Below are positions 4,152 through 21,798 of a stretch of 57,669 bases of DNA, piece by piece. Origin of the DNA: a virus; IMG/VR virus record IMGVR_UViG_3300030109_001534, positions 11,821 to 69,489 of that record. One strand, 5' to 3'. The position numbers and the translations under genes were made by a program. The notes below the pieces were generated by a model. It made no database searches. It saw only the letters and a list, made by a program, of their open reading frames with translations, and was not told the DNA's origin. Numbering within the stretch: the stretch's first letter is position 1; every line of letters starts with the position of its first letter.

Positions 4152-4895
4152 ATGGCAGTAAATGGAACAAATATAAGCGTTCAAAAGACGTTTTACAATG
4201 ATTCGCAAATGACTGATATGAACAGTCTAGCAAATGCATTGTTGACTAAGCCTACTGAACTGTCTCCAATTATTACTCATTTAGCAGGAAAAGACGATAA
4301 AAGATTCCCTCTATCTTTCTTAACAGAAGGAGTTGGTAACACTAAGTCTATTGACCGATTAGAGTATGAGTATCGTGTGGCAACACATAGATTAAGAACG
4401 AGACCAGTGGCAACAGCAAATGCAAACGCAAACTTAGGTTTGGGTGGATCTTCTTTCGAATTAGAATTTCCTGACAAACACTTCGTATTCCCATATGTGT
4501 TAGTATCTCAATCAGGAGCACAAGCACGTATAATGAAAGCACCTGAGCAAGTAGCTGGGGGATCTTCATACAAGTATACACTACAGTTAGTTAACCCTGT
4601 AGCTTCAGCAACTTTACCTGCAGCCGATGCAGTAGCGGGAGCACTTTGGGCTCAAATGTATGCACCTGTAGGAGTTGATTTCTCTAGAGGTAATGCTTCT
4701 AACTGGGAAACTCCAGGTAAAGTAAGAAACAAACTAACTACAGTTAGAAAATCTTACCAACTAAAGGAGGATCTACTACTAAGCTTTGGATGGACTACGA
4801 AGAGTACTTACACATGCTTGACTTTAAAGAAGAGTGTGAATTGTACTACTGGTACGGTCAAAAAACATACGATGCAAACGGACATACTTTCATGA
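4152..4895 (+). CDS. Major capsid protein, N-terminal part (frameshifted)
   Basis: The first ~203 codons (MAVNGTNISVQKTFYNDSQM... to ...KVRNKLTTVRKSYQ, ending at 4760) match the N-terminal half of a crAss-like HK97-fold major capsid protein. After codon 4758-4760 the frame yields a Leu/Thr/Lys-rich tail (LKEDLLLSFGWTTK...) unlike capsid protein, ending at 4895. The protein sense continues in the -1 frame from 4760 (TKGGSTTKLWMDYEEYLH). Restoring one base, for example one extra A in CAAC near 4758-4761, would join both halves into a protein of about 466 residues, a normal size for the family. The start ATG has the A-rich leader ATAATAAA. Most likely a single-base assembly or sequencing error, less likely a real mutation. 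Confidence 0.85.
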   Translation: MAVNGTNISVQKTFYNDSQMTDMNSLANALLTKPTELSPIITHLAGKDDKRFPLSFLTEGVGNTKSIDRLEYEYRVATHRLRTRPVATANANANLGLGGSSFELEFPDKHFVFPYVLVSQSGAQARIMKAPEQVAGGSSYKYTLQLVNPVASATLPAADAVAGALWAQMYAPVGVDFSRGNASNWETPGKVRNKLTTVRKSYQLKEDLLLSFGWTTKSTYTCLTLKKSVNCTTGTVKKHTMQTDILS

Positions 4896-5551
4896 AAGAT
4901 GAAAATGGACAACCTGTAATCGTAGGTCCTGGTCTTTTAGAGCAAATCGTCAACACTGACACTTACTCTACAATGACTGAGACAAAACTTAAGAATATCA
5001 TCGGAGACTTATTCTACGGAATGACTGATGCTTCTGTTAAACAAGTAACTTTATATACTGGAACAGGAGGAGCAAGAGAATTTGATGAAGCTCTTAAAAG
5101 CCACTTTTCAAATAATACTTTTAAAGTGGGAGGAGAAAACAGATTTATCACAGGTTCAGGACGTAACCTAGGATTAACTGGATACTTCACTACCTATGAG
5201 CATGTAGATGGACACACGATCAATGTGGTAAAATTACCAATCTTTGATCATGGTGCCGTGGCGCAAGCTCGTGCAAAACACCCTACAACAGGATACTCTT
5301 TAGAGTCTTACAGAATGGTATTTGTTGATCAATCAAATTATGATGGTCAAAATAACCTTCAAATGATTTCTAAGAAAGGTCGTGAGGCAATGAGATGGTG
5401 TGTAGCTGGATCTGTAGTCCCTAGAGGATTCTCAGGATCTGATGCTAGAGCATCTGACATTGACGGGGCGTCTGTGCACATGTTAAAGACAGCAGGTATT
5501 GTGTTAAGAAGATTTGACACATCTATTGATATTACGTGCACAGCATCGTAA
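4790..5551 (+). CDS. Major capsid protein, C-terminal part (frameshifted)
   Basis: Residues such as CELYYWYGQKTYDANG, VGPGLLEQI and LKNIIGDLFYGMTD continue the capsid fold started at 4152. The coordinate 4790 is only the first in-frame ATG. The coding sense of this frame begins at about 4760, after an in-frame TAG at 4745-4747. No independent start is likely: the nearest Shine-Dalgarno-like string (AAAGGAGG at 4763-4770) is about 20 bases before the ATG and encodes the conserved KGG of the joined protein. The product forms the icosahedral shell in many copies. The gene is followed by 146 non-coding bases with two hairpins. Confidence 0.85.
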   Translation: MDYEEYLHMLDFKEECELYYWYGQKTYDANGHTFMKDENGQPVIVGPGLLEQIVNTDTYSTMTETKLKNIIGDLFYGMTDASVKQVTLYTGTGGAREFDEALKSHFSNNTFKVGGENRFITGSGRNLGLTGYFTTYEHVDGHTINVVKLPIFDHGAVAQARAKHPTTGYSLESYRMVFVDQSNYDGQNNLQMISKKGREAMRWCVAGSVVPRGFSGSDARASDIDGASVHMLKTAGIVLRRFDTSIDITCTAS

Positions 5552-9622: not shown

Positions 9623-12600
9623 ATGTTTAAATTTCCAATATTTTACTATCCAGACGGAGATCAAGGAGGTGGTCAAGAAGAAAATGAAGAATACGGCGAA
9701 GAAAGAGAAAGTCAAGAACAAGAGCAAGACCAACAAGACTCTTCAGACTCAGGCGGTGGTTCTACTACTACTACTGGTACTGCTGTAAATTATGATACAG
9801 ATACAGAGATACAAAGTGATACTCCAGACACTAGAGGAAAAGAAATAACAGGGGAAGGAGAAAAATATTTAAAAGTAAAAGAATATGTAGGGACAAAGTC
9901 TCAGCATCAGAGAAATATGATCTTTGGTGCACCTCCACCAACAGGATTACCTAAACACATACAAATAGTTGCAGGTCCACATGCACCAGGCGGTAGCTTA
10001 ATAGGTCCTAAATTAAGGATTACGGTTAATAAAACTGTAACTATGCAAGATCCACTTACTGGAGTAATTTCTGTGGATCCAGCTTTTGATTCTGTTCAGT
10101 CTATTCAAGATATAACACCAAACAATTCAGGTGCTCCTTACTTTACAAACACCGGACAAGGTCCTGATATTATAGATATGTATGGGTTAGGAGTTCAATC
10201 TTTTCTATCATATCAAACAGGACAAGAGCAATACATAACTTCAAACACTGCTACAGATCAACTTTATATAGAATATGAAAATGACCATGTAGGAGGAGGT
10301 AGTTGTACTACTTTACCTTATTGTCCTTTTCAAAGAAAAATACAAGTAACATGGTCAAGCGGTGATACTAGAGTTTTTGAAATTATTTTACCAGGATGGT
10401 CACACGCAAATCTTGGTAATGGTAGTCCTAGTCATACTACATTTACTAATTCTGTAAGAACAGATGGATGTGAAGGAGACGGGACTACAGCACATGTACA
10501 CACTTCACATTCACAAAATAATATAGGATATACTGGTAATCAGCACAATGATTACATGTATTTAGGATTTTTTAAAACAGTAAATGGTAATAATGTAGGA
10601 TTGCCTAATACTTTTGAGTATAATCTTAGTTGGAATACTACTAAGTATTATGATTTTGATTTTGACTCTAATGGTAGTACTTTTAATTTTGGTGTCTTAG
10701 GTAATCAAGAAAATGATTTTGCAGGAGAACAATATTATAAAGGTATTGTAGCTAATATTGATTCAACACAAAATGTTGCTACTACTGGTAATGAAACTGC
10801 AGACATATGGTTTCCTAATAATATAGTTGGTAATTCTTATGACTATGCAGCAAGTCAGTTATTAAGTCAAGCACAAATAACTGGATTTGGTTTACCTCCT
10901 GCTTTTGATGGTGCAGGTGTTGGACTTAGATTTATGGATGTACATGTATATTCAGAAAAGACTCCAGACTGTACAGCAGTTCCACCAAGTCCAATAACAT
11001 TTACTGTTTGTGATGATAGTAGCGCTTCAGATTATTATTTACTTACAGGAGTAGATTGTAGTAGTAATGATTTAACAGCTTTTGGAACTCCAGCAGTTAA
11101 TTATTTAACAGGAGGTGGTGCAACATTTATATCACAAACACATCCAAATAATTGTTGTACAGATTGTAATGGTTTACAATTAAGTGTAACAAAAGTTGAT
11201 CCAACAATACAAGGAGGTGATGACGGTATAATAGAAGTTACAGTTTTAGATGGAGGTTTTTCAGGAGCAACAGCAATTCCAGGACAACCTTACACTAATG
11301 GAGGAGTAGGAACAGCTACTGGAAATGAAACAGGTAATGGTAGATATGCATGGACAATAAGAGCAAACAGTTTAACAAAAATAGGAGGATTAGGAAGTAC
11401 AGGAACAGCTAATGTAGTAGGGTACGGATATGCAACTCATCCATTAGGAGGTCAAGATTATGTTAATACATTTACACTTGGATTTCAAGAAGATTTAGCA
11501 CAAGATGCAGTTACTACACCACAAAATGCAGCTTTTGCTAGTTTAGGTGTACTAAGCGTTACAATGGGTAGTACAACAACTAATGTAATACCTGCAAGTA
11601 CTGTAAATGGTACAGTAAGTACAGGTTTAATTGCAGGATGTTATCAAATATATGTAAGAGATGAATCTCAAAACGGTGCAGGCTCTACAGTACCTTGTTT
11701 CAAAACAATGGAGGTTTGTTTAGATGATGGTGTAGGTATTGCAGGATGTACAGATAATAATGCAGGTACTAATTTTGGAGCAGCATTAAATTATCAATCT
11801 AATGCAGTAGTAGATGATGGCTCTTGTTTATATTGTAATGCAACTACTGGAGCTTTAATAGATTCATCTGGTAATCTTGCAAATGGAAATGGAGATATAG
11901 CAGCAGGTCAAATAAATTCTATTACAACAACTCCTACAATAAGAACAAATTCAGCTGATGGTATTATTAATATAGGTAATCTTCCAGCAACTACACAATT
12001 TCAACCTTTTATAAATGATGTTGTAGATGCTAATGGAATGTTTAATGGAGAATATACTATACAGTTTTATAATACTACTAGTAAAGTTTTTTGGGATGCA
12101 GCACAAAGCAGTTCAACAGCTAATGATTTAACAAACTTTAGCACAGTAGGTAATTTAATAAACAATGGACAAGGACAATGGCAAGGTAGTTTTACTACAA
12201 CTAATGTAGGTGCAAATTTAAATTATGGTTATTATGCTGTAAAAATAGCAATTAATGATCCAGATGCTGCAGTAGAAGTAGAAGATTGTTTTCAAGTATT
12301 TTATTTTGTAATACCTATAAATGTATGTGTAGACTCAAGTGGTCAATTTGCAACAGCTATTACAAATACAAACTCACCTCCAGGCACATTAATAATACAA
12401 CAGGCGGAAGATATTTTATGGTATTCTAACCCATCAATGTGTTCAATATTAAACAACTTTTGTTGTAATCCACCTCTATTAACAAACCCATCAGGAGTAT
12501 GTGATGTTAATGAATTATTAGCAGAATTTTATTGTGATCCTGTACCATCGTTATTAAGTTTTGAGTTACAACATCAAGATCCTACTAGTAACGCTTTTGT

Positions 12601-14305
12601 TACAATAAATACAAATACTTATACACCTACTAATAGTGCTAGTTATAACTATACTTATACTCAAGGATCATCTATAACTGCTAACACTTTTACAGATGAT
12701 GGTTTTTATAGAGTAATACTAACAAGCTCATACCCTAACTCTGCAGACTGTATACAAACAAGTTCTGTTGTACAAATTACATCTGCTATATTTGGATGTA
12801 TGGATGCAACTGCACTAAATTACGATCCAACAGCTACATGTCCTGACACTTGTGTTTATTGTGTTTATGGATGTACTGATGATACAATGTCTAACTATAA
12901 TCCTCTTGCTACTTGTGATGATGGTTCATGTATTCCATTTGTGTACGGATGTACAGATCCTTTAGCTTTAAATTATTATGCAGGAGCAAATATTGATGAC
13001 GGTTCATGTCAATACGGAGTATTAGGATGCACAGATCCAACAGCTTATAATTACAATAAAAATTGTGCAGGTGTAACAGTAACTGCAACAGTAGATGATG
13101 GATGTTGTTTTTATCCATGTAGTCCAGCTAATCAAGGGCCTCCATCTACTTTTACAACAACGGATGCTACAGGAGGATGTCCAGCAGCTAATAATGATGG
13201 ATCATTTACTATCACTGTGTTAATTATGAATACTGGAGCAATGGCAGGGCAAAGTAAAACAGTACAGTTTTTTGATAACTCTGGTAATTTACTTTACACA
13301 GATCCTACTACATATACTAATGCAAATAGTCCTAATCATCAATTTACTTCTACACTTTCTAATGTAGGTCCTGGAGTTTATTTAGCAGTTGTAACTGATA
13401 ACTTTGGATGTGTAGAAAATATATATGGAACTGTAGGTAGTACTACAGCAAACTGTGGGTGTACAGATCCAAATGCATCTAACTACGACCCAACAGCAAC
13501 TACAGACGACGGATCATGTTTATATCCAGGATGTATAGATCCTAATGCTTTAAACTATGATCCTAACGCATCAATAGACGATGGCTCGTGTGTATATCAA
13601 ACAGTAGTAAACCCTTGTATTCCTGGAAATACTAATTCATTAATTAGTTTATTACAAGCATGTATAGCTAAGAATGGTTTTACGTATTATAACAAATTAG
13701 TTACAGGACAAGCAGATGATTGTTCTATAATGAATGCTTGGAAAGTTATTTTAATAGAATATCTAGTAAGTAAAAGAGGAACAAAGTGTATATACAATTG
13801 TGCAGATTCTGCAACTCCAAATGTATCTACAATTGGAACATGTGCTTCATTATGGACAACAGGAGGACCAGTAACAGGGCTTAATGATCAAGCGCATGCA
13901 GGATCTAGTATAGCAACAGGTGAAGGAACTACAATAACAGATCCTAGTTTATATTTTGTAGCATCAAATACTTTATATTTAGGAGATGTTATAAAAATGC
14001 CTAGTGGTCTTATCTATCAAGTAGTTCCACCAACAACTAGTATTAGTGGTGCAGGACACAATCCTGAAACAGCTCAAGGAGCAAAATCTGGTGCTTGGCA
14101 ACAATGTGTACCAGGTCTACAAGTAACTTCGTTTCCAGACAGTGTAAATTATTTAGATAATTTTAATACATTTGTAGCTAAGTTCTGTGTAGACTGTAAT
14201 ATAGTAGATGAAAATGTGATTAGAAACGTAAAATCAACACCACCATCTAAAAGAGGTAGAAGTGGAAGATTAAGTATAGATGGTATTAACGGTTTAGAAA
14301 TATAA
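9623..14305 (+). CDS. Giant fibre/adhesin-like virion protein with GC[TM]D-DDGSC repeats
   Basis: 1560 residues without a signal peptide, so probably a virion component. Residues 1-75 are acidic, Gln/Ser-rich and low-complexity. The middle is a series of beta-rich Ig-like or lectin-like segments. Repeats of the form GC.D..A.NYDP.A..DDGSC, which resemble thrombospondin type 3-like Ca-binding repeats, occur at about residue 708, as a cluster at 1057-1165, and as two copies at 1277-1325. The C-terminal ~230 residues form another domain (NPCIPGNTNSLISLLQACIA...). The same repeat type builds the secreted protein at 18430. Likely role: long adhesive appendage used in host recognition. The specific ligand is unknown. 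Confidence 0.55.
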   Translation: MFKFPIFYYPDGDQGGGQEENEEYGEERESQEQEQDQQDSSDSGGGSTTTTGTAVNYDTDTEIQSDTPDTRGKEITGEGEKYLKVKEYVGTKSQHQRNMIFGAPPPTGLPKHIQIVAGPHAPGGSLIGPKLRITVNKTVTMQDPLTGVISVDPAFDSVQSIQDITPNNSGAPYFTNTGQGPDIIDMYGLGVQSFLSYQTGQEQYITSNTATDQLYIEYENDHVGGGSCTTLPYCPFQRKIQVTWSSGDTRVFEIILPGWSHANLGNGSPSHTTFTNSVRTDGCEGDGTTAHVHTSHSQNNIGYTGNQHNDYMYLGFFKTVNGNNVGLPNTFEYNLSWNTTKYYDFDFDSNGSTFNFGVLGNQENDFAGEQYYKGIVANIDSTQNVATTGNETADIWFPNNIVGNSYDYAASQLLSQAQITGFGLPPAFDGAGVGLRFMDVHVYSEKTPDCTAVPPSPITFTVCDDSSASDYYLLTGVDCSSNDLTAFGTPAVNYLTGGGATFISQTHPNNCCTDCNGLQLSVTKVDPTIQGGDDGIIEVTVLDGGFSGATAIPGQPYTNGGVGTATGNETGNGRYAWTIRANSLTKIGGLGSTGTANVVGYGYATHPLGGQDYVNTFTLGFQEDLAQDAVTTPQNAAFASLGVLSVTMGSTTTNVIPASTVNGTVSTGLIAGCYQIYVRDESQNGAGSTVPCFKTMEVCLDDGVGIAGCTDNNAGTNFGAALNYQSNAVVDDGSCLYCNATTGALIDSSGNLANGNGDIAAGQINSITTTPTIRTNSADGIINIGNLPATTQFQPFINDVVDANGMFNGEYTIQFYNTTSKVFWDAAQSSSTANDLTNFSTVGNLINNGQGQWQGSFTTTNVGANLNYGYYAVKIAINDPDAAVEVEDCFQVFYFVIPINVCVDSSGQFATAITNTNSPPGTLIIQQAEDILWYSNPSMCSILNNFCCNPPLLTNPSGVCDVNELLAEFYCDPVPSLLSFELQHQDPTSNAFVTINTNTYTPTNSASYNYTYTQGSSITANTFTDDGFYRVILTSSYPNSADCIQTSSVVQITSAIFGCMDATALNYDPTATCPDTCVYCVYGCTDDTMSNYNPLATCDDGSCIPFVYGCTDPLALNYYAGANIDDGSCQYGVLGCTDPTAYNYNKNCAGVTVTATVDDGCCFYPCSPANQGPPSTFTTTDATGGCPAANNDGSFTITVLIMNTGAMAGQSKTVQFFDNSGNLLYTDPTTYTNANSPNHQFTSTLSNVGPGVYLAVVTDNFGCVENIYGTVGSTTANCGCTDPNASNYDPTATTDDGSCLYPGCIDPNALNYDPNASIDDGSCVYQTVVNPCIPGNTNSLISLLQACIAKNGFTYYNKLVTGQADDCSIMNAWKVILIEYLVSKRGTKCIYNCADSATPNVSTIGTCASLWTTGGPVTGLNDQAHAGSSIATGEGTTITDPSLYFVASNTLYLGDVIKMPSGLIYQVVPPTTSISGAGHNPETAQGAKSGAWQQCVPGLQVTSFPDSVNYLDNFNTFVAKFCVDCNIVDENVIRNVKSTPPSKRGRSGRLSIDGINGLEI

Positions 14306-16197: not shown

Positions 16198-17256
16198 TTG
16201 AAGAAAAAATTACTTACATTTATATTAATAGTTATTATAACTTCTTGTGTAGCACCAAAGAAGTGTTGTGGACAATTAGATCTTAAAAAAGCATTTAAGT
16301 TCTCAACTTTCTATGCATCTGTAAACGGAGGTACATCTTTATCAAATGAAGATGTATTCTCTGTTAATACAGGAATATTACAACAAGATGTTATTACTAC
16401 ACCTTATGATTATAATCTATCTTTAGGAGTTAGAAAAATAGCTAGGTTTGGTTACGAGAATAGAGCAAATACGTTTTATGATGGTACAGAAACTAGTTGG
16501 TCAGACGGTGCTAATGTAGGTAAAGTATCTGGTTTAGAATTTTTATTTGAAGCTAATTATAAAAGACAGCAAGGTGTAGACTACTTAGATCAGCACCACT
16601 TTATTAGATTTGTAGCAGATAATTATATTTTAAAAGGAGAATATTTAGAAGATGGTTTTGCAGATATTAAATACTTTGAGACATCTCAGAGATATAGATA
16701 TAAAGCAGATAATAAACTATCTTTTAATGTTGGACTTGTACAAAGATTATCAGAGCCTTATGGATATGATCCTTTAGCAGATTGGATGTTAGATAATGGT
16801 AATTTACATTACACTTATTTAGCAATACAAGAAGGATATGCAATAGATGTATTTAATAGTGAATATAGAGATCCTCAAGGTAATATTGTTGCAACAAGTA
16901 AAGAAGTTTGGGAGGAAGTAGTAATCCCAAATGTATTATATGATTATTCAGAAAGAAAAAGAAACGAGCTAGAAAATACTATACAACACTCTGTAGTATT
17001 AGGATTTGATTTTTATTATTATAAGAAAAACTTTTGGACTCACAGTTGGGCTAACTTAATGCCATATCATTTAGATAACGGTATATATTCTTACGAGAAA
17101 TATAACGACGGACAATGGTTAGACTATTCTGGAGGTTTAATATTTGGATATAAATACAATAAAAATCTTGGTACATTTATAGAAGGTAAATACAATAAGT
17201 ATTGGAACAGAGAATGGTATGATTTTAAATTTGGAATTAATTATATAATATTTTAA
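16198..17256 (+). CDS. Phage-encoded exported barrel-like outer-membrane protein (possible lipoprotein)
   Basis: 352 residues from a TTG start at 16198. This start is chosen because it preserves the export signal KKKLLTFILIVIITSC; no nearby ATG does. ITSC at 14-17 fits a lipobox with Cys17, although CCGQ a few residues later could instead be a signal peptidase I site of the -GQ type common in this host group. The mature part has alternating aromatic/polar strands (YDYNLSLGVRKIARFGYENR, WLDYSGGLIFGYKYNKNLGT) and ends in ...WYDFKFGINYIIF, a C-terminal Phe as in outer-membrane barrels. I recall similar proteins in uncultured marine phages, but have not checked. Probable role: modifying the infected cell's surface. 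Confidence 0.55.
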   Translation: MKKKLLTFILIVIITSCVAPKKCCGQLDLKKAFKFSTFYASVNGGTSLSNEDVFSVNTGILQQDVITTPYDYNLSLGVRKIARFGYENRANTFYDGTETSWSDGANVGKVSGLEFLFEANYKRQQGVDYLDQHHFIRFVADNYILKGEYLEDGFADIKYFETSQRYRYKADNKLSFNVGLVQRLSEPYGYDPLADWMLDNGNLHYTYLAIQEGYAIDVFNSEYRDPQGNIVATSKEVWEEVVIPNVLYDYSERKRNELENTIQHSVVLGFDFYYYKKNFWTHSWANLMPYHLDNGIYSYEKYNDGQWLDYSGGLIFGYKYNKNLGTFIEGKYNKYWNREWYDFKFGINYIIF

Positions 17257-17609
17257 TGTACACATACGTAATAACACTAGATAGAGTTGTAGATGGAGAT
17301 ACTATAGATGCGATGATTGATCTAGGGTTTGATGTGCACGTTAAAAAAAGAATTAGATTTATGGGTATTAATACTCCTGAATCTAGAACTAGAGATTTAG
17401 AAGAAAAGAAAAGAGGTCTAGCTGCTAAAGCTAGAGTTGAGGAACTGTTAAATAAATGTTCTTGCATTACTTTAAAATCTCATGGCTCAGGTAAATTTGG
17501 TAGATGTTTGGGAGAACTTTTTATTGAATTAGAAAATGAAGCCGTAAACTTAAATCAATTATTAATTTCTGAAGGACATGCAACAGAGTACTTCGGAGGA
17601 AAACGTTAA
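17256..17609 (+). CDS. Staphylococcal-type nuclease (SNase/thermonuclease domain)
   Basis: 117 residues, a compact SNase domain with no signal peptide, so cytoplasmic unless exported another way. Motifs in order: VVDGDT (Asp15 matches the Ca-binding Asp), RIRFMGINTPE (Arg34, Thr40 and Glu42; the second metal Asp of the staphylococcal enzyme is Asn39 here, a variant seen in other family members), and GKFGRCLGEL (Arg83). These cover the catalytic Arg-Glu-Arg set, so the enzyme is probably an active Ca-dependent DNA/RNA hydrolase. Its ATG overlaps the stop of the upstream gene (TAATG). Possible roles: host DNA breakdown or nucleotide scavenging. Confidence 0.85.
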   Translation: MYTYVITLDRVVDGDTIDAMIDLGFDVHVKKRIRFMGINTPESRTRDLEEKKRGLAAKARVEELLNKCSCITLKSHGSGKFGRCLGELFIELENEAVNLNQLLISEGHATEYFGGKR

Positions 17610-17799: not shown

Positions 17800-18081
17800 A
17801 TGGCAAAAGAACTAAGCGAAGATACAGCAGTACAACTAAGTCTAAAAACATTAGGAGGGGTAGCCTTCTTGATAGCTACCTTAGTTGGTATGTGGTTTAC
17901 ATTGCAAGCAGATATAAACGAAGCAAAGGAACTACCGGTTCCTCCACCACCTGATGTAACTAGAATGGAATTTGATATGAAAGATCAAATGATTCGTAAT
18001 ACAATTATAACTACACAGAAAGATGTAGAAGAAATAAAAACTACTCTTGAAAAAATAGAAGACAAACTATATAACAGATGA
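17800..18081 (+). CDS. Membrane-anchored coiled-coil protein
   Basis: 93 residues: a short soluble start MAKELSEDTAVQLSLKTLGG, one hydrophobic segment (about residues 19-35, GVAFLIATLVGMWFTL), a Pro-rich hinge PVPPPPDVTR, and a C-terminal heptad coiled coil (VEEIKTTLEKIEDKLYNR). This shape is frequent among small phage lysis or envelope accessory proteins in marine phages. Its stop overlaps the next start (ATGA), so it is probably translated with the exported thioredoxin-like protein. A holin or spanin-like role is possible, but there is no specific motif for either. Confidence 0.5.
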   Translation: MAKELSEDTAVQLSLKTLGGVAFLIATLVGMWFTLQADINEAKELPVPPPPDVTRMEFDMKDQMIRNTIITTQKDVEEIKTTLEKIEDKLYNR

Positions 18082-18428
18082 AAAAAATAGACATGTCAAA
18101 GGTTATTTATGTTTTAATGATGATAATAGTATTTACTATATCACAAGCTTTTGGTCAAATAGTAGTAACAGAATTTAATGCTGAGTGGAATGCTGCTAAC
18201 AAAGTTGAATGGGTAGATAAATTATCTGATTGTGATATAGCAAAAGTTGATATTACAAAAGAAGTAGACTTACAGCAAAAACACAAAGTAGTTATAGTAC
18301 CTACTATAATTATATTTAAAGACGGAGAAGAAATAAAAAGATACCAAGCAGATCTTAGTTTTAAGATGCTTGCAACAAGAAAAGAGATACAAAACTTTAT
18401 TAATGACCAAATAATGTCAGATTTTTAA
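18078..18428 (+). CDS. Exported thioredoxin-like protein lacking the CxxC active site
   Basis: 116 residues. The signal peptide MKKIDMSKVIYVLMMIIVFTISQAFG is followed by Q (cut before Gln, typical of this host group). The mature part has a thioredoxin-like pattern: strand VVTEFNAEW, where family members carry FWAxWCxxC but here NAEWNAANK without Cys, then CDIAKVDITKEV, and VPTIIIFKDGEEIKRY with the cis-Pro loop. Only one Cys is present, so it cannot catalyse disulfide exchange. It more likely acts as a binding or chaperone module. It sits directly before the secreted disulfide-rich repeat protein at 18430. Confidence 0.65.
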   Translation: MKKIDMSKVIYVLMMIIVFTISQAFGQIVVTEFNAEWNAANKVEWVDKLSDCDIAKVDITKEVDLQQKHKVVIVPTIIIFKDGEEIKRYQADLSFKMLATRKEIQNFINDQIMSDF

Positions 18429-18429
18429 A

Positions 18430-21400
18430 ATGAAAAAATTATTATTAATATTATTATTATTACCTTTTATAGGGTTAGGACAAAATACTTGGGTAAACTA
18501 CCAAGTACAATATGATTTTTATGCACCAGCAGAATCACACTTTTTTATGGTATCTGATGCTAATGGTGATACAGCTATGTTTCATCAACCAACTACTCCT
18601 TATGAGTTTTTAGATACTACAATATTTATAAACTCTGGTAGTTACACAGTATCATTAATTGATAGTTTTGGTGATGGATGGATTTCTAATCAACCAGCAT
18701 TTTTTAGAATGCGTAATTTATGTCAAGGATTAATAATAAACTGGGATCCAGTATTAGGTTCTTTTTATTTAAGAGACACTACTGTAAACATATTGCCTTG
18801 CGCACCACCAGTATATGGGTGTATGGACTCAAACGCTTTAAATTATGACCCGTTAGCTACAATAGATGACGGTAGTTGTACATATCCACCTTGTAATGGT
18901 ATTATAAACGATACAGCTTGGCAGATGTGTTGGGGGTCACAAGCAGCTATATCATGGGAATGGGAAACTCCTAATAATACTAACTGCGCTGTAATAGAGT
19001 TACATTATGGATCTGCAAATGGTTACAATATAACAATACCTGGTTTTTGGCCTAGTGGTGGTTGGAGTAACTTTGCTATAGGTGCAGGACCTGGACAAAT
19101 GCCACCTAATTGGAATGAAGAACATTATATGGTATTAGAGTTTGTTGATGGGACTTTATCAGACACAATGTTTTTTACACCTTATGCTTGTATACCAGGT
19201 TGTACAGATCCAACACAACAATCTTATAATCCTTGGGCTACAATAGATGATGGCTCATGTGCAGGTACTACATGTGATACTGCAACAGAGTATCAAATTA
19301 CAATGGAGCTTACACTTGACAACTGGCCAAATGAAACTTCATGGATAATGAATAGTGGTGGTATAATAGATCAAGCACCACAAGGTACTTATAACTTTAA
19401 TGATATAGGACAAACCTTTACTTACACTTTTTGTGTAGATCAAAATATAGGCTTTGAATTAATATTAAGTGATAGCTATGGTGATGGACTTGCTGGTTCT
19501 ACATCTGGAGGATCATTAGATGGTAATGTAGTTATATATGATTGTAATGGTGATACTATATGGAGTTTACCTGATCCTAACTTTGGTAACGTAACTTATT
19601 CAGGACCACAAAATGGTGTGCCTTGTAATACAACACCAGATATATATGGGTGTACAGATGATGATTATGTAGAATATGTTGATAGCGCAAACGTAGACGA
19701 TGGTAGTTGTTTAACATTACACACTTACGGTTGTACTGATTCTGCAGCATTTAACTATAATCCAAACGCTACAATTATGGACTTAGTGCCTGATTGTAAT
19801 TACACGTTAATATTAGAAGATGACGCAGGTGATGGTTGGGGTAACTCATACTTAGGAGTATCACAAGGACAAATGTTATGGAACTTTACAATGGGACCTG
19901 GTGCTTATGCTGATACATTTAATTTAATATTAGACTCAGATCAGCCTGTAACAATATATTACTTTGAAATAGGTGGACCACAAACACCACCTGAAGAAGT
20001 ACAATTCCAAACATGGCATAACTCTTTTAAACTTATAAATGCTAATGGTATTGTATTATTAGAAGAAGGCACTAATCCTTTTGCTAATAATGGTCAAGGT
20101 GCTTTACAAGAATTTGATAGTCCTTTCTGGCATACTTATTCTGCAGTACCTTATTGTGGTAATTACTGTATACCTACTATATTAGGTTGTATGGACAGTA
20201 CAGCTTTTAACTATGCAGATTCTGCTAACACAGATGACGGATCTTGTATACCTGTAATATTAGGATGTACTAATCCACTTGCATTTAACTACGACGCATT
20301 TGCAAATGTAGATGATAGTAGCTGTGTCACTACAATTGTAGGTTGTATGGATTCATTAGCATTTAATTACAATCCTTTTGCAAACGTTAATGATCCAGCA
20401 TCATGTGTACCTGTTATATATGGTTGTATGGATGACACTATGTTTAACTACAACCCAGCAGCAAATACACCTGACACATGTATACCAGTAGTATTTGGAT
20501 GTACAGATGCATTAGCATTTAACTATGATAGTTTAGCTAACACTAATAATAACTCTTGTATACCATTTATATATGGTTGTACAAATCCTGCGGCATTAAA
20601 TTATGATCCGCTAGCAAATACTGATGATTCAACATGTATAGGTGTAGTATATGGGTGTACTGATCCTACAATGTGGAATTATAATCAATTAGCTAATACA
20701 GACAATGGATCCTGTATTCCTTTTATCTATGGATGTACAGACTCAACTATGTTTAACTATGATCCTTTGGCTAATACAGATAACAATACTTGCATACCTT
20801 TTATATACGGATGCACTAACCCTATAGCTTTAAACTTTGATCAGAATGCTAATACAGATGATTTTAGTTGCATACTTCCTATATACGGTTGTATGGATAG
20901 CACTGCATTTAATTATGATCCTTTAGCTAATGTAGATAATGGTAGTTGTGTACCAGTAATCTTAGGATGTACAAACCCAATAGCATTAAATTATGACCCT
21001 AATGCTAACACTGACGATTTTAGTTGTATATTACCAATCTACGGATGTACAGACAGCACAATGTTTAATTACGATCCGTTAGCAAATGTAGACAATGGCA
21101 CATGTATACCATACATATATGGATGTACTAATCCAGTAGCACTTAATTATGACCCAAATGCAAACACAGATGACTTCTCTTGTATATTACCTATATACGG
21201 TTGTACAGATAGTACTATGTTTAATTATAACCCACTAGCAAATGTTGATAACGGAAGTTGTATTCCTTTTATATACGGTTGTACTAATCCTAATAGTATC
21301 AACTATGATCCAATGGCTAATACTGAGGATTTTAGCTGCATTCCTTTTATTTATGGGTGCACTGATTCTACAGCTCTTAATTATGACTCATTGGCTAACA

Positions 21401-21798
21401 CAGATAATGGCTCATGTATTACAGCGATTGAAGGATGCATGGATGCAAATGCTTTTAACTATGATGCGTTTGCTAATGTAAATGATTCTGCATCTTGTTT
21501 ATACGATGCACAATGTATTACAGGTCCAGGTAATCCTTACTGGTTAAACGATCCTTGTTATGCTTGGGTAATAGATGTAGATGAATATTGTTGTAATAAT
21601 GCATGGGACAATATATGTCAATTAACATACGATCATTGTAATGATAATTGGTCAGGACCTCTACCTAAAAGAACAGACGCAAAATTAATAGGAGTTACAG
21701 ATTTATTAGGTAAGCCTGTAAATAAAATTAAAAATCAGCTTTTATTATATATGTATGATGATGGAAGCGTAAACAGAAAAATAATAATTAAAAAATAA
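18430..21798 (+). CDS. Secreted repeat protein with type IX secretion C-terminal sorting domain
   Basis: 1122 residues. Signal peptide MKKLLLILLLLPFIGLG, then Q. The first half has GDGW segments (SLIDSFGDGW, SDSYGDGL, EDDAGDGWG) typical of secreted Bacteroidota proteins. 21 repeats of GC[TM][DN]..A.NY...AN.DDGSC follow, the last 17 back to back at residues about 586-1023 with a 26-residue period and two Cys each. Then comes a Cys-rich domain (DEYCCNNAWDNICQ). Residues about 1084-1122 (LIGVTDLLGKPVNKIKNQ, then LLLYMYDDGSVNRKIIIKK) match the type A T9SS sorting signal that directs export across the outer membrane and surface attachment. A phage gene using the host T9SS suggests display on the infected cell. 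The target is unknown. Confidence 0.7.
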   Translation: MKKLLLILLLLPFIGLGQNTWVNYQVQYDFYAPAESHFFMVSDANGDTAMFHQPTTPYEFLDTTIFINSGSYTVSLIDSFGDGWISNQPAFFRMRNLCQGLIINWDPVLGSFYLRDTTVNILPCAPPVYGCMDSNALNYDPLATIDDGSCTYPPCNGIINDTAWQMCWGSQAAISWEWETPNNTNCAVIELHYGSANGYNITIPGFWPSGGWSNFAIGAGPGQMPPNWNEEHYMVLEFVDGTLSDTMFFTPYACIPGCTDPTQQSYNPWATIDDGSCAGTTCDTATEYQITMELTLDNWPNETSWIMNSGGIIDQAPQGTYNFNDIGQTFTYTFCVDQNIGFELILSDSYGDGLAGSTSGGSLDGNVVIYDCNGDTIWSLPDPNFGNVTYSGPQNGVPCNTTPDIYGCTDDDYVEYVDSANVDDGSCLTLHTYGCTDSAAFNYNPNATIMDLVPDCNYTLILEDDAGDGWGNSYLGVSQGQMLWNFTMGPGAYADTFNLILDSDQPVTIYYFEIGGPQTPPEEVQFQTWHNSFKLINANGIVLLEEGTNPFANNGQGALQEFDSPFWHTYSAVPYCGNYCIPTILGCMDSTAFNYADSANTDDGSCIPVILGCTNPLAFNYDAFANVDDSSCVTTIVGCMDSLAFNYNPFANVNDPASCVPVIYGCMDDTMFNYNPAANTPDTCIPVVFGCTDALAFNYDSLANTNNNSCIPFIYGCTNPAALNYDPLANTDDSTCIGVVYGCTDPTMWNYNQLANTDNGSCIPFIYGCTDSTMFNYDPLANTDNNTCIPFIYGCTNPIALNFDQNANTDDFSCILPIYGCMDSTAFNYDPLANVDNGSCVPVILGCTNPIALNYDPNANTDDFSCILPIYGCTDSTMFNYDPLANVDNGTCIPYIYGCTNPVALNYDPNANTDDFSCILPIYGCTDSTMFNYNPLANVDNGSCIPFIYGCTNPNSINYDPMANTEDFSCIPFIYGCTDSTALNYDSLANTDNGSCITAIEGCMDANAFNYDAFANVNDSASCLYDAQCITGPGNPYWLNDPCYAWVIDVDEYCCNNAWDNICQLTYDHCNDNWSGPLPKRTDAKLIGVTDLLGKPVNKIKNQLLLYMYDDGSVNRKIIIKK
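20185..21498 (+). repeat. Array of 17 tandem 26-residue (about 78-base) coding repeats
   Basis: Within the gene at 18430, 17 contiguous units of GC.[DN]..A.NYDP.ANTDDGSC plus a four-residue linker such as IPFI or ILPI. From 20731 to 21417 the units alternate between a GCTD-STMFNYDPLANVDNGSC-type and a GCTN-PIALNYDPNANTDDFSC-type, giving a higher-order period of about 156 bases. Codons differ between units although residues are conserved. Confidence 0.85.

Follow-up and report, generated by a model that had tools for sequence, protein, structure and literature searches.

The window, meaning the whole stretch of 57,669 nucleotides that was analysed, carries a gene for a predicted outer-membrane barrel protein. 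Downstream of it, in the same orientation and in tight packing, lie an SNase-like nuclease gene, a small ORF and the genes for a 93-residue membrane protein (TM93), a thioredoxin-fold protein (Trx) and a large Cys-rich protein, the cargo. The positions of these features are collected in Table 1. By its profile matches the window is a crAss-like virus (Crassvirales), with hits to Ring_1 (PF24228, 2.5e-57), Ring_2 (PF25702, 2.8e-40), the capsid protein (PF23898, 3.5e-21) and Ring_3/4 (PF25710, 7.2e-9).

Table 1. The barrel gene and the genes following it, with positions in the window
Feature	Position	Strand	Basis
Outer-membrane beta-barrel protein gene (predicted)	16198..17256	+	352 aa, TTG start; two AlphaFold2 models, PDB matches
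Signal peptide region, residues 1-25	16198..16272	+	lipobox-like ITSC (Cys17); signal peptidase I site CCG|Q26
Barrel domain (predicted), residues 37-349	16306..17244	+	DSSP of models
Long conserved insert between strands 7/8, residues 186-260, helix 235-257 (predicted)	16753..16977	+	models and conservation
SNase-like nuclease, optional cassette companion	17256..17609	+	phrog_452 1.4e-37, PF00565 1.5e-9
TM93, 93 aa, one transmembrane segment, coiled-coil-like C-terminal part	17800..18081	+	hydropathy, alignment, co-occurrence
Trx, exported thioredoxin-fold protein without CxxC	18078..18428	+	PF00085 1.1e-7; signal peptide in sequence
Cargo, exported Cys-rich protein, 1122 aa, 60 Cys, 13 GCTD-type repeats	18430..21798	+	sequence
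Short C-terminal cargo tail, putative T9SS-type sorting tail	21640..21795	+	tail common to relatives and Flavobacteriales

The barrel gene and the predicted fold of its product

The coordinates, strand, frame and TTG start given for the barrel gene in the original prediction were all correct when checked against the sequence. The TTG codon sits one base past the stop of the preceding gene. The identical TTG was found at the identical place in the four closest relatives, and ATG at the equivalent position in most others. The dN/dS of the gene against these four relatives was 0.075-0.176, and family members aligned end to end with 52-91% identity to the window protein. The gene therefore codes for a real protein under purifying selection.

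The product had been described as exported, and an N-terminal signal peptide was indeed found in it and in its family. In the window protein and most near relatives the N-terminus reads ...ITSC-VAPKKCCG-Q, in which a lipobox-like motif is combined with a possible signal peptidase I site before Gln; among the relatives, either both sites are kept or a plain signal peptide ends in [AGS]Q. Gln at position +1 after signal peptidase I cleavage is the Q-rule of Bacteroidetes (PMC5837995), and the host should therefore belong to Bacteroidota. The signal element typical of the near-relative barrels, C-x-x-PK[KE]CC[GS]Q or a close form, was also observed on some cargo proteins (at the N-termini in loci L054, L062, L071 and L076), as if it had been swapped between neighbouring genes. 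The strand-rich, aromatic character of the protein was borne out. The C-terminal Phe was retained in most relatives and replaced by Arg or Leu in some, and the last strand was nearly invariant.

Two AlphaFold2 models of the protein were obtained, from an alignment of 42 sequences (pLDDT 72.3, pTM 0.66) and from 62 more diverse sequences (pLDDT 75.4, pTM 0.68). An N-terminal helix corresponding to the signal peptide was present in both, together with twelve long antiparallel strands; bulges broke the first two strands in the second model, and residues 82-109 were poorly predicted. The insert at residues 186-260 was well predicted and conserved, and we infer that it is extracellular if the N-terminus of the barrel is periplasmic. 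The top structural matches of the first model were the outer-membrane barrels CymA (Z 11.3) and OmpG (10.5), and those of the second were Tsx (Z 11.9), EstA (11.7) and KdgM (11.2-11.3), followed by the further outer-membrane barrels NanC (Z 11.0) and NalP (Z 10.9). The claim of a barrel thus stands, by prediction, because the best matches of both models are outer-membrane barrels, and the strand number was even (12) in both. It does not rest on the in/out alternation of the strands, which was only modestly above that of shuffled sequences (47/2000). AlphaFold had been named beforehand as the check on this reading and a non-barrel fold as its refutation; a 12-stranded barrel was returned twice, and no such other fold occurred. 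As modelled, the gene very probably encodes an outer-membrane barrel.

No Pfam or NCBIfam family matched the barrel at E<=1 in the profile search, the Lom/Ail-type Pfam family included, no PDB sequence matched at E<=5, and no PHROG was found below E 0.01, the best matches being at E 0.011 or worse. A search of the viral structure library gave a single close match, an unnamed 342-aa protein (BFVD A0A516LKJ4), which aligned structurally over its full length (E 8.6e-22, TM 0.65, 18% identity) and is probably a distant member of the barrel family. Annotated phage porins came next. The statement in the original prediction that phages rarely encode outer-membrane proteins was overstated, as several annotated porins or barrels are listed in this search and lambda has lom. 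Lambda Lom and the annotated phage porins resemble the present protein in being phage-encoded outer-membrane proteins; Lom is a short single protein, whereas 12 strands are predicted for the present barrel, whose gene sits in a fixed cassette.

Conservation of the four-gene cassette

In IMG/VR, 430 barrel loci were confirmed in a first scan and at least 567 in a second. As far as can be read from their sequences, hundreds of uncultured marine Bacteroidota viruses carry the four-gene cassette of barrel, TM93, Trx and tailed cargo. Counting loci in which the anchor gene is flanked by 5 kb or more in both directions, and with detection profiles built from the first barrel set, the four genes were all found in 33/34 and in 39/39 barrel-anchored loci (72/73). 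The same was true of 17/18 loci found through a Trx search, some contigs of which also belong to the second barrel set. In all three sets the cargo was always on the same strand. Beyond 6 kb, no tailed protein was found in about 620 kb. Only three gene orders were present in 108 complete loci, each a rotation of cargo-barrel-TM93-Trx, and barrels were 55-78% identical where the cargo bodies were 25-40% identical. It is very likely that the cassette forms one functional unit.

The SNase-like nuclease was present in 26/86 loci at varying positions. No signal peptide was evident in it, either in the window (17256-17609) or in L083 (17914) and L066 (11749). Two barrel paralogues were observed in one locus (L048, 10001-11101 and 15735-16811), the second about 5.7 kb downstream. 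In a T4-like record (L206, 8291-10270), a divergent barrel of 417 aa was accompanied by TM93 and Trx, with no recognisable tailed cargo.

Among 36 barrel-carrying virus records, the crAss Ring_1 protein was detected in 13 and the T4-type capsid protein Gp23 in 5 others, and therefore at least two unrelated virion types have the gene. The T7-type portal was also used as a marker; it matched nowhere and was hence uninformative. When crAss-like and T4-like labels were placed on the barrel tree, the two types were mixed (4 changes each), which is still compatible with a single origin. Since the cassette occurs in both crAss-like and T4-like phages, it is not tied to one virion type.

No credible match to barrel, TM93 or Trx was found in 50,697 phage records. 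Of 296 genomes from the order to which the L083 bin belongs (titled Flavobacteriales), one matched the barrel, and this match was the bin's own contig, which carries phage-type genes; a host origin of the barrel was rejected on these genomes. Six barrel matches were found among genome contigs, all in metagenome-assembled bins, and some of these bins represent unlikely hosts (Nitrosopelagicus, Maricaulis), as would be expected of stray phage contigs. In the literature, no report of the barrel family or of the four-gene cassette was found. New here are the barrel family and the fact that it almost always comes paired with phage cargo of the type IX secretion system (T9SS); phage outer-membrane proteins and phage T9SS cargo were already known.

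The cargo and its C-terminal tail

The cargo of the window begins with a signal peptide (MKKLLLILLLLPFIGLGQ...). The T9SS type A sorting domain TIGR04183, which has a curated cut-off of 23 bits, matched 6/8 sampled cargo ends at 31-57 bits. Of the other two, one was the tail of the window cargo, which matched neither TIGR04183 nor any other NCBIfam model; the remaining one likewise gave no match. In the record G000 only a sub-threshold match was found, inside another gene. In the 36 virus records, one TIGR04183 match above the cut-off was found in 24, and a different, short tail scored above 80 bits in 11 others; the two tails were never found at such strength in one record, and the L206 record had neither. 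A query of the phage records with the type A tail returned three weak matches only, in unannotated metagenomic records.

The short tail comprises about 40 residues (TDxLGR...NxLLxYxYxDGTVxxKxIxK), and the window cargo has this form. It was present in 70/196 Flavobacteriales genomes, nearly all of which measure 0.8-2 Mb. Many of these contain over 20 copies, and in a small-genome member the tail reached at least 34 places. Where checked, these Flavobacteriales tails were the C-termini of otherwise different proteins, and SprA, a protein of the T9SS translocon, was present in 10/12 tested genomes of this group. There is no Pfam or NCBIfam model for the pattern TDxLGR...YxDGTVxxKxI. From this distribution, the short tail may be an unmodelled T9SS-type sorting tail of small-genome Flavobacteriales, which would make these bacteria the likely hosts. 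Between the short tail and the type A domain the alignment was weak (P 0.0064; controls 0.09-0.66), and because of this weakness no kinship of the two tails is claimed.

Judged from these tails, the cargo is likely to leave the cell by T9SS. T9SS-sorted cargo of a phage has been described for Cryophage, with suggested roles in hijacking of host secretion, competition or superinfection (PMC7468147), and crAss-BACON phages encode proteins with a T9SS sorting domain that were likewise suggested to hijack host secretion (PMC6949934). These phage proteins differ from the present cargo in their domains, and neither a partner barrel nor a conserved cassette is described in the parts of the two papers that were consulted.

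Proposed role of the barrel and alternatives

To our knowledge, T9SS is confined to Bacteroidota and their nearest kin. The outer membrane of an infected Bacteroidota cell probably receives the barrel, and the virus probably remodels the surface of its host during infection. In the mechanism that we propose, cargo, Trx and barrel would cross the inner membrane by means of the Sec signal peptides present in their sequences. The CxxC-less Trx may then hold the Cys-rich cargo in the periplasm, with TM93 tying the assembly to the inner membrane. The host T9SS translocon would export the cargo through its C-terminal tail, a step strongly implied by the tail itself, and the barrel may receive or anchor the cargo at the outer membrane, as PorP/SprF does for type B cargo. 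Such an anchor or shuttle is suggested by the pairing of the genes and by the conservation of the barrel beside a variable cargo. In these four steps taken together, the barrel would serve as the outer-membrane component of a cassette by which the phage displays its cargo via the host T9SS, a reading to which we give a probability of about 0.5. In a further and speculative step, the displayed cargo could mask or alter the surface, and superinfecting phages, or progeny meeting debris, would bind less.

A precedent exists in the hosts, in which barrel genes often follow T9SS type B cargo genes and PorP/SprF collects and anchors the cargo (PMC12618676, PMC9143113). The pairs SprF-SprB and PorP-PG1035 are like the phage genes in that an outer-membrane barrel is encoded beside a large T9SS surface protein and a conserved barrel stands with a variable cargo. 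They are unlike them in that the adjoining phage cargo tails are type A or short and not type B, and in that the phage barrel is accompanied by TM93 and Trx and not by PorE. Membership of the PorP/SprF family (PF11751) was rejected, with no hmmscan match at E<=1 and an hhalign probability of 0.0 against 21 PorP/SprF proteins. PorV is likewise an outer-membrane barrel and serves type A tails, and the T9SS complex chain 8gl6_F was among the matches of the first model (Z 9.5). A single PorV protein of the host, however, serves all type A cargo, whereas the phage barrel has 12 predicted strands and no family match, and one cargo travels along with it.

Several observations weigh against the display model. 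Type A cargo is normally served by the host PorV and needs no private barrel (PMC12618676), which counts against an anchor or shuttle. Both tail types occur beside related barrels, and this speaks against tight recognition of the tail. The barrel has no sequence kinship to PorP/SprF, the tail of the window cargo is not recognised by TIGR04183, and the L206 record keeps barrel, TM93 and Trx without a tailed cargo. By analogy with the host systems, the odds that the barrel is an anchor or shuttle for the cargo are about even. That the purpose is the control of adsorption is speculative; it is plausible, though less likely than not.

The barrel might instead act by itself as a surface blocker, in superinfection exclusion or in shielding progeny from debris, with the T9SS cargo performing a separate function alongside; the blocking of further adsorption, like lysis, had been named as a plausible role in the original prediction. 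Such roles are established for single phage envelope proteins (outer-membrane proteins and lipoproteins), which counts in favour of this explanation together with the barrel fold, the long conserved insert predicted on one side and the cargo-less L206 record. It leaves unexplained why a tailed cargo and two further envelope proteins are almost always linked to the barrel, and a barrel conserved across hundreds of phages is unlike a protein fitted to variable receptors. In view of the linkage to a T9SS cargo and two envelope-protein genes, which the original prediction had overlooked, the likely function is that of a part of a surface-display cassette, and a barrel blocking alone is unlikely.

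A role in lysis, in which barrel and TM93 would form a spanin-like pair of outer and inner membrane proteins disrupting the envelope at the end of infection, is improbable. TM93 does have one TM segment and a coiled-coil-like part, and an endolysin-type gene lies near some loci (an amidase in L083; the M15 peptidase family in 27/86 loci). Against spanin and holin families, however, TM93 gave weak matches only (E 0.026-0.095 in 1-2/9 members), and its portion beyond the TM segment is shorter than 60 residues, which is short for spanning the periplasm. The window also has a separate holin, and the T9SS cargo has no place in lysis. A general porin or uptake channel feeding phage production in the infected cell is still less probable: the substrate channels Tsx, KdgM and NanC are among the closest solved structures, but matches of this kind are to be expected for any 12-stranded barrel, no transporter family matched, and the linkage to T9SS cargo would be unexplained. 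That the barrel is a virion protein and not a protein of the host membrane is very improbable, since its position in the structural block of the window, between fibre-like and ring genes, is set against signal peptides throughout the family, the presence of the gene in phages with unrelated virions, and an L083 barrel beside nucleotide-metabolism and endolysin genes.

Most of what is known about how phages control the surface of their hosts comes from enterobacterial and temperate phages. If display via T9SS is true, a widespread surface-control cassette working through this system would exist in uncultured marine phages, and hundreds of unnamed phage genes would gain a testable function. The predicted host group would be those small-genome Flavobacteriales that share the short tail, and the barrel, which is unrelated to SprF, would become a candidate for a T9SS anchor or shuttle. 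In its broadest form, put forward with slightly less than even confidence, the proposal is of a mobile four-gene trans-envelope surface-display system, shared by marine Bacteroidota phages and crossing virion types, in which a T9SS cargo, a barrel unrelated to PorP/SprF that serves it as a dedicated anchor or shuttle in the outer membrane, a periplasmic Trx chaperone and an inner-membrane tether would recoat the infected cell by way of the secretion machinery of the host.

Two further features of the window were noted. The crAss capsid match lies in an ORF of 247 aa (4152-4895) and covers only profile positions 15-214 of 496; an overlapping ORF of 253 aa (4790-5551) follows, and the capsid gene is possibly frameshifted or interrupted (4152-5551). 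Repeats of the type GCTDxxAxNYDPxAxxDDGSC occur 13 times in the cargo and 4 times in an upstream protein (9623-14305), a large protein of the structural block without a signal peptide that matched the cargo by BLASTP at E 6e-39. It is conceivable from this resemblance that the cargo mimics the virion protein encoded there.
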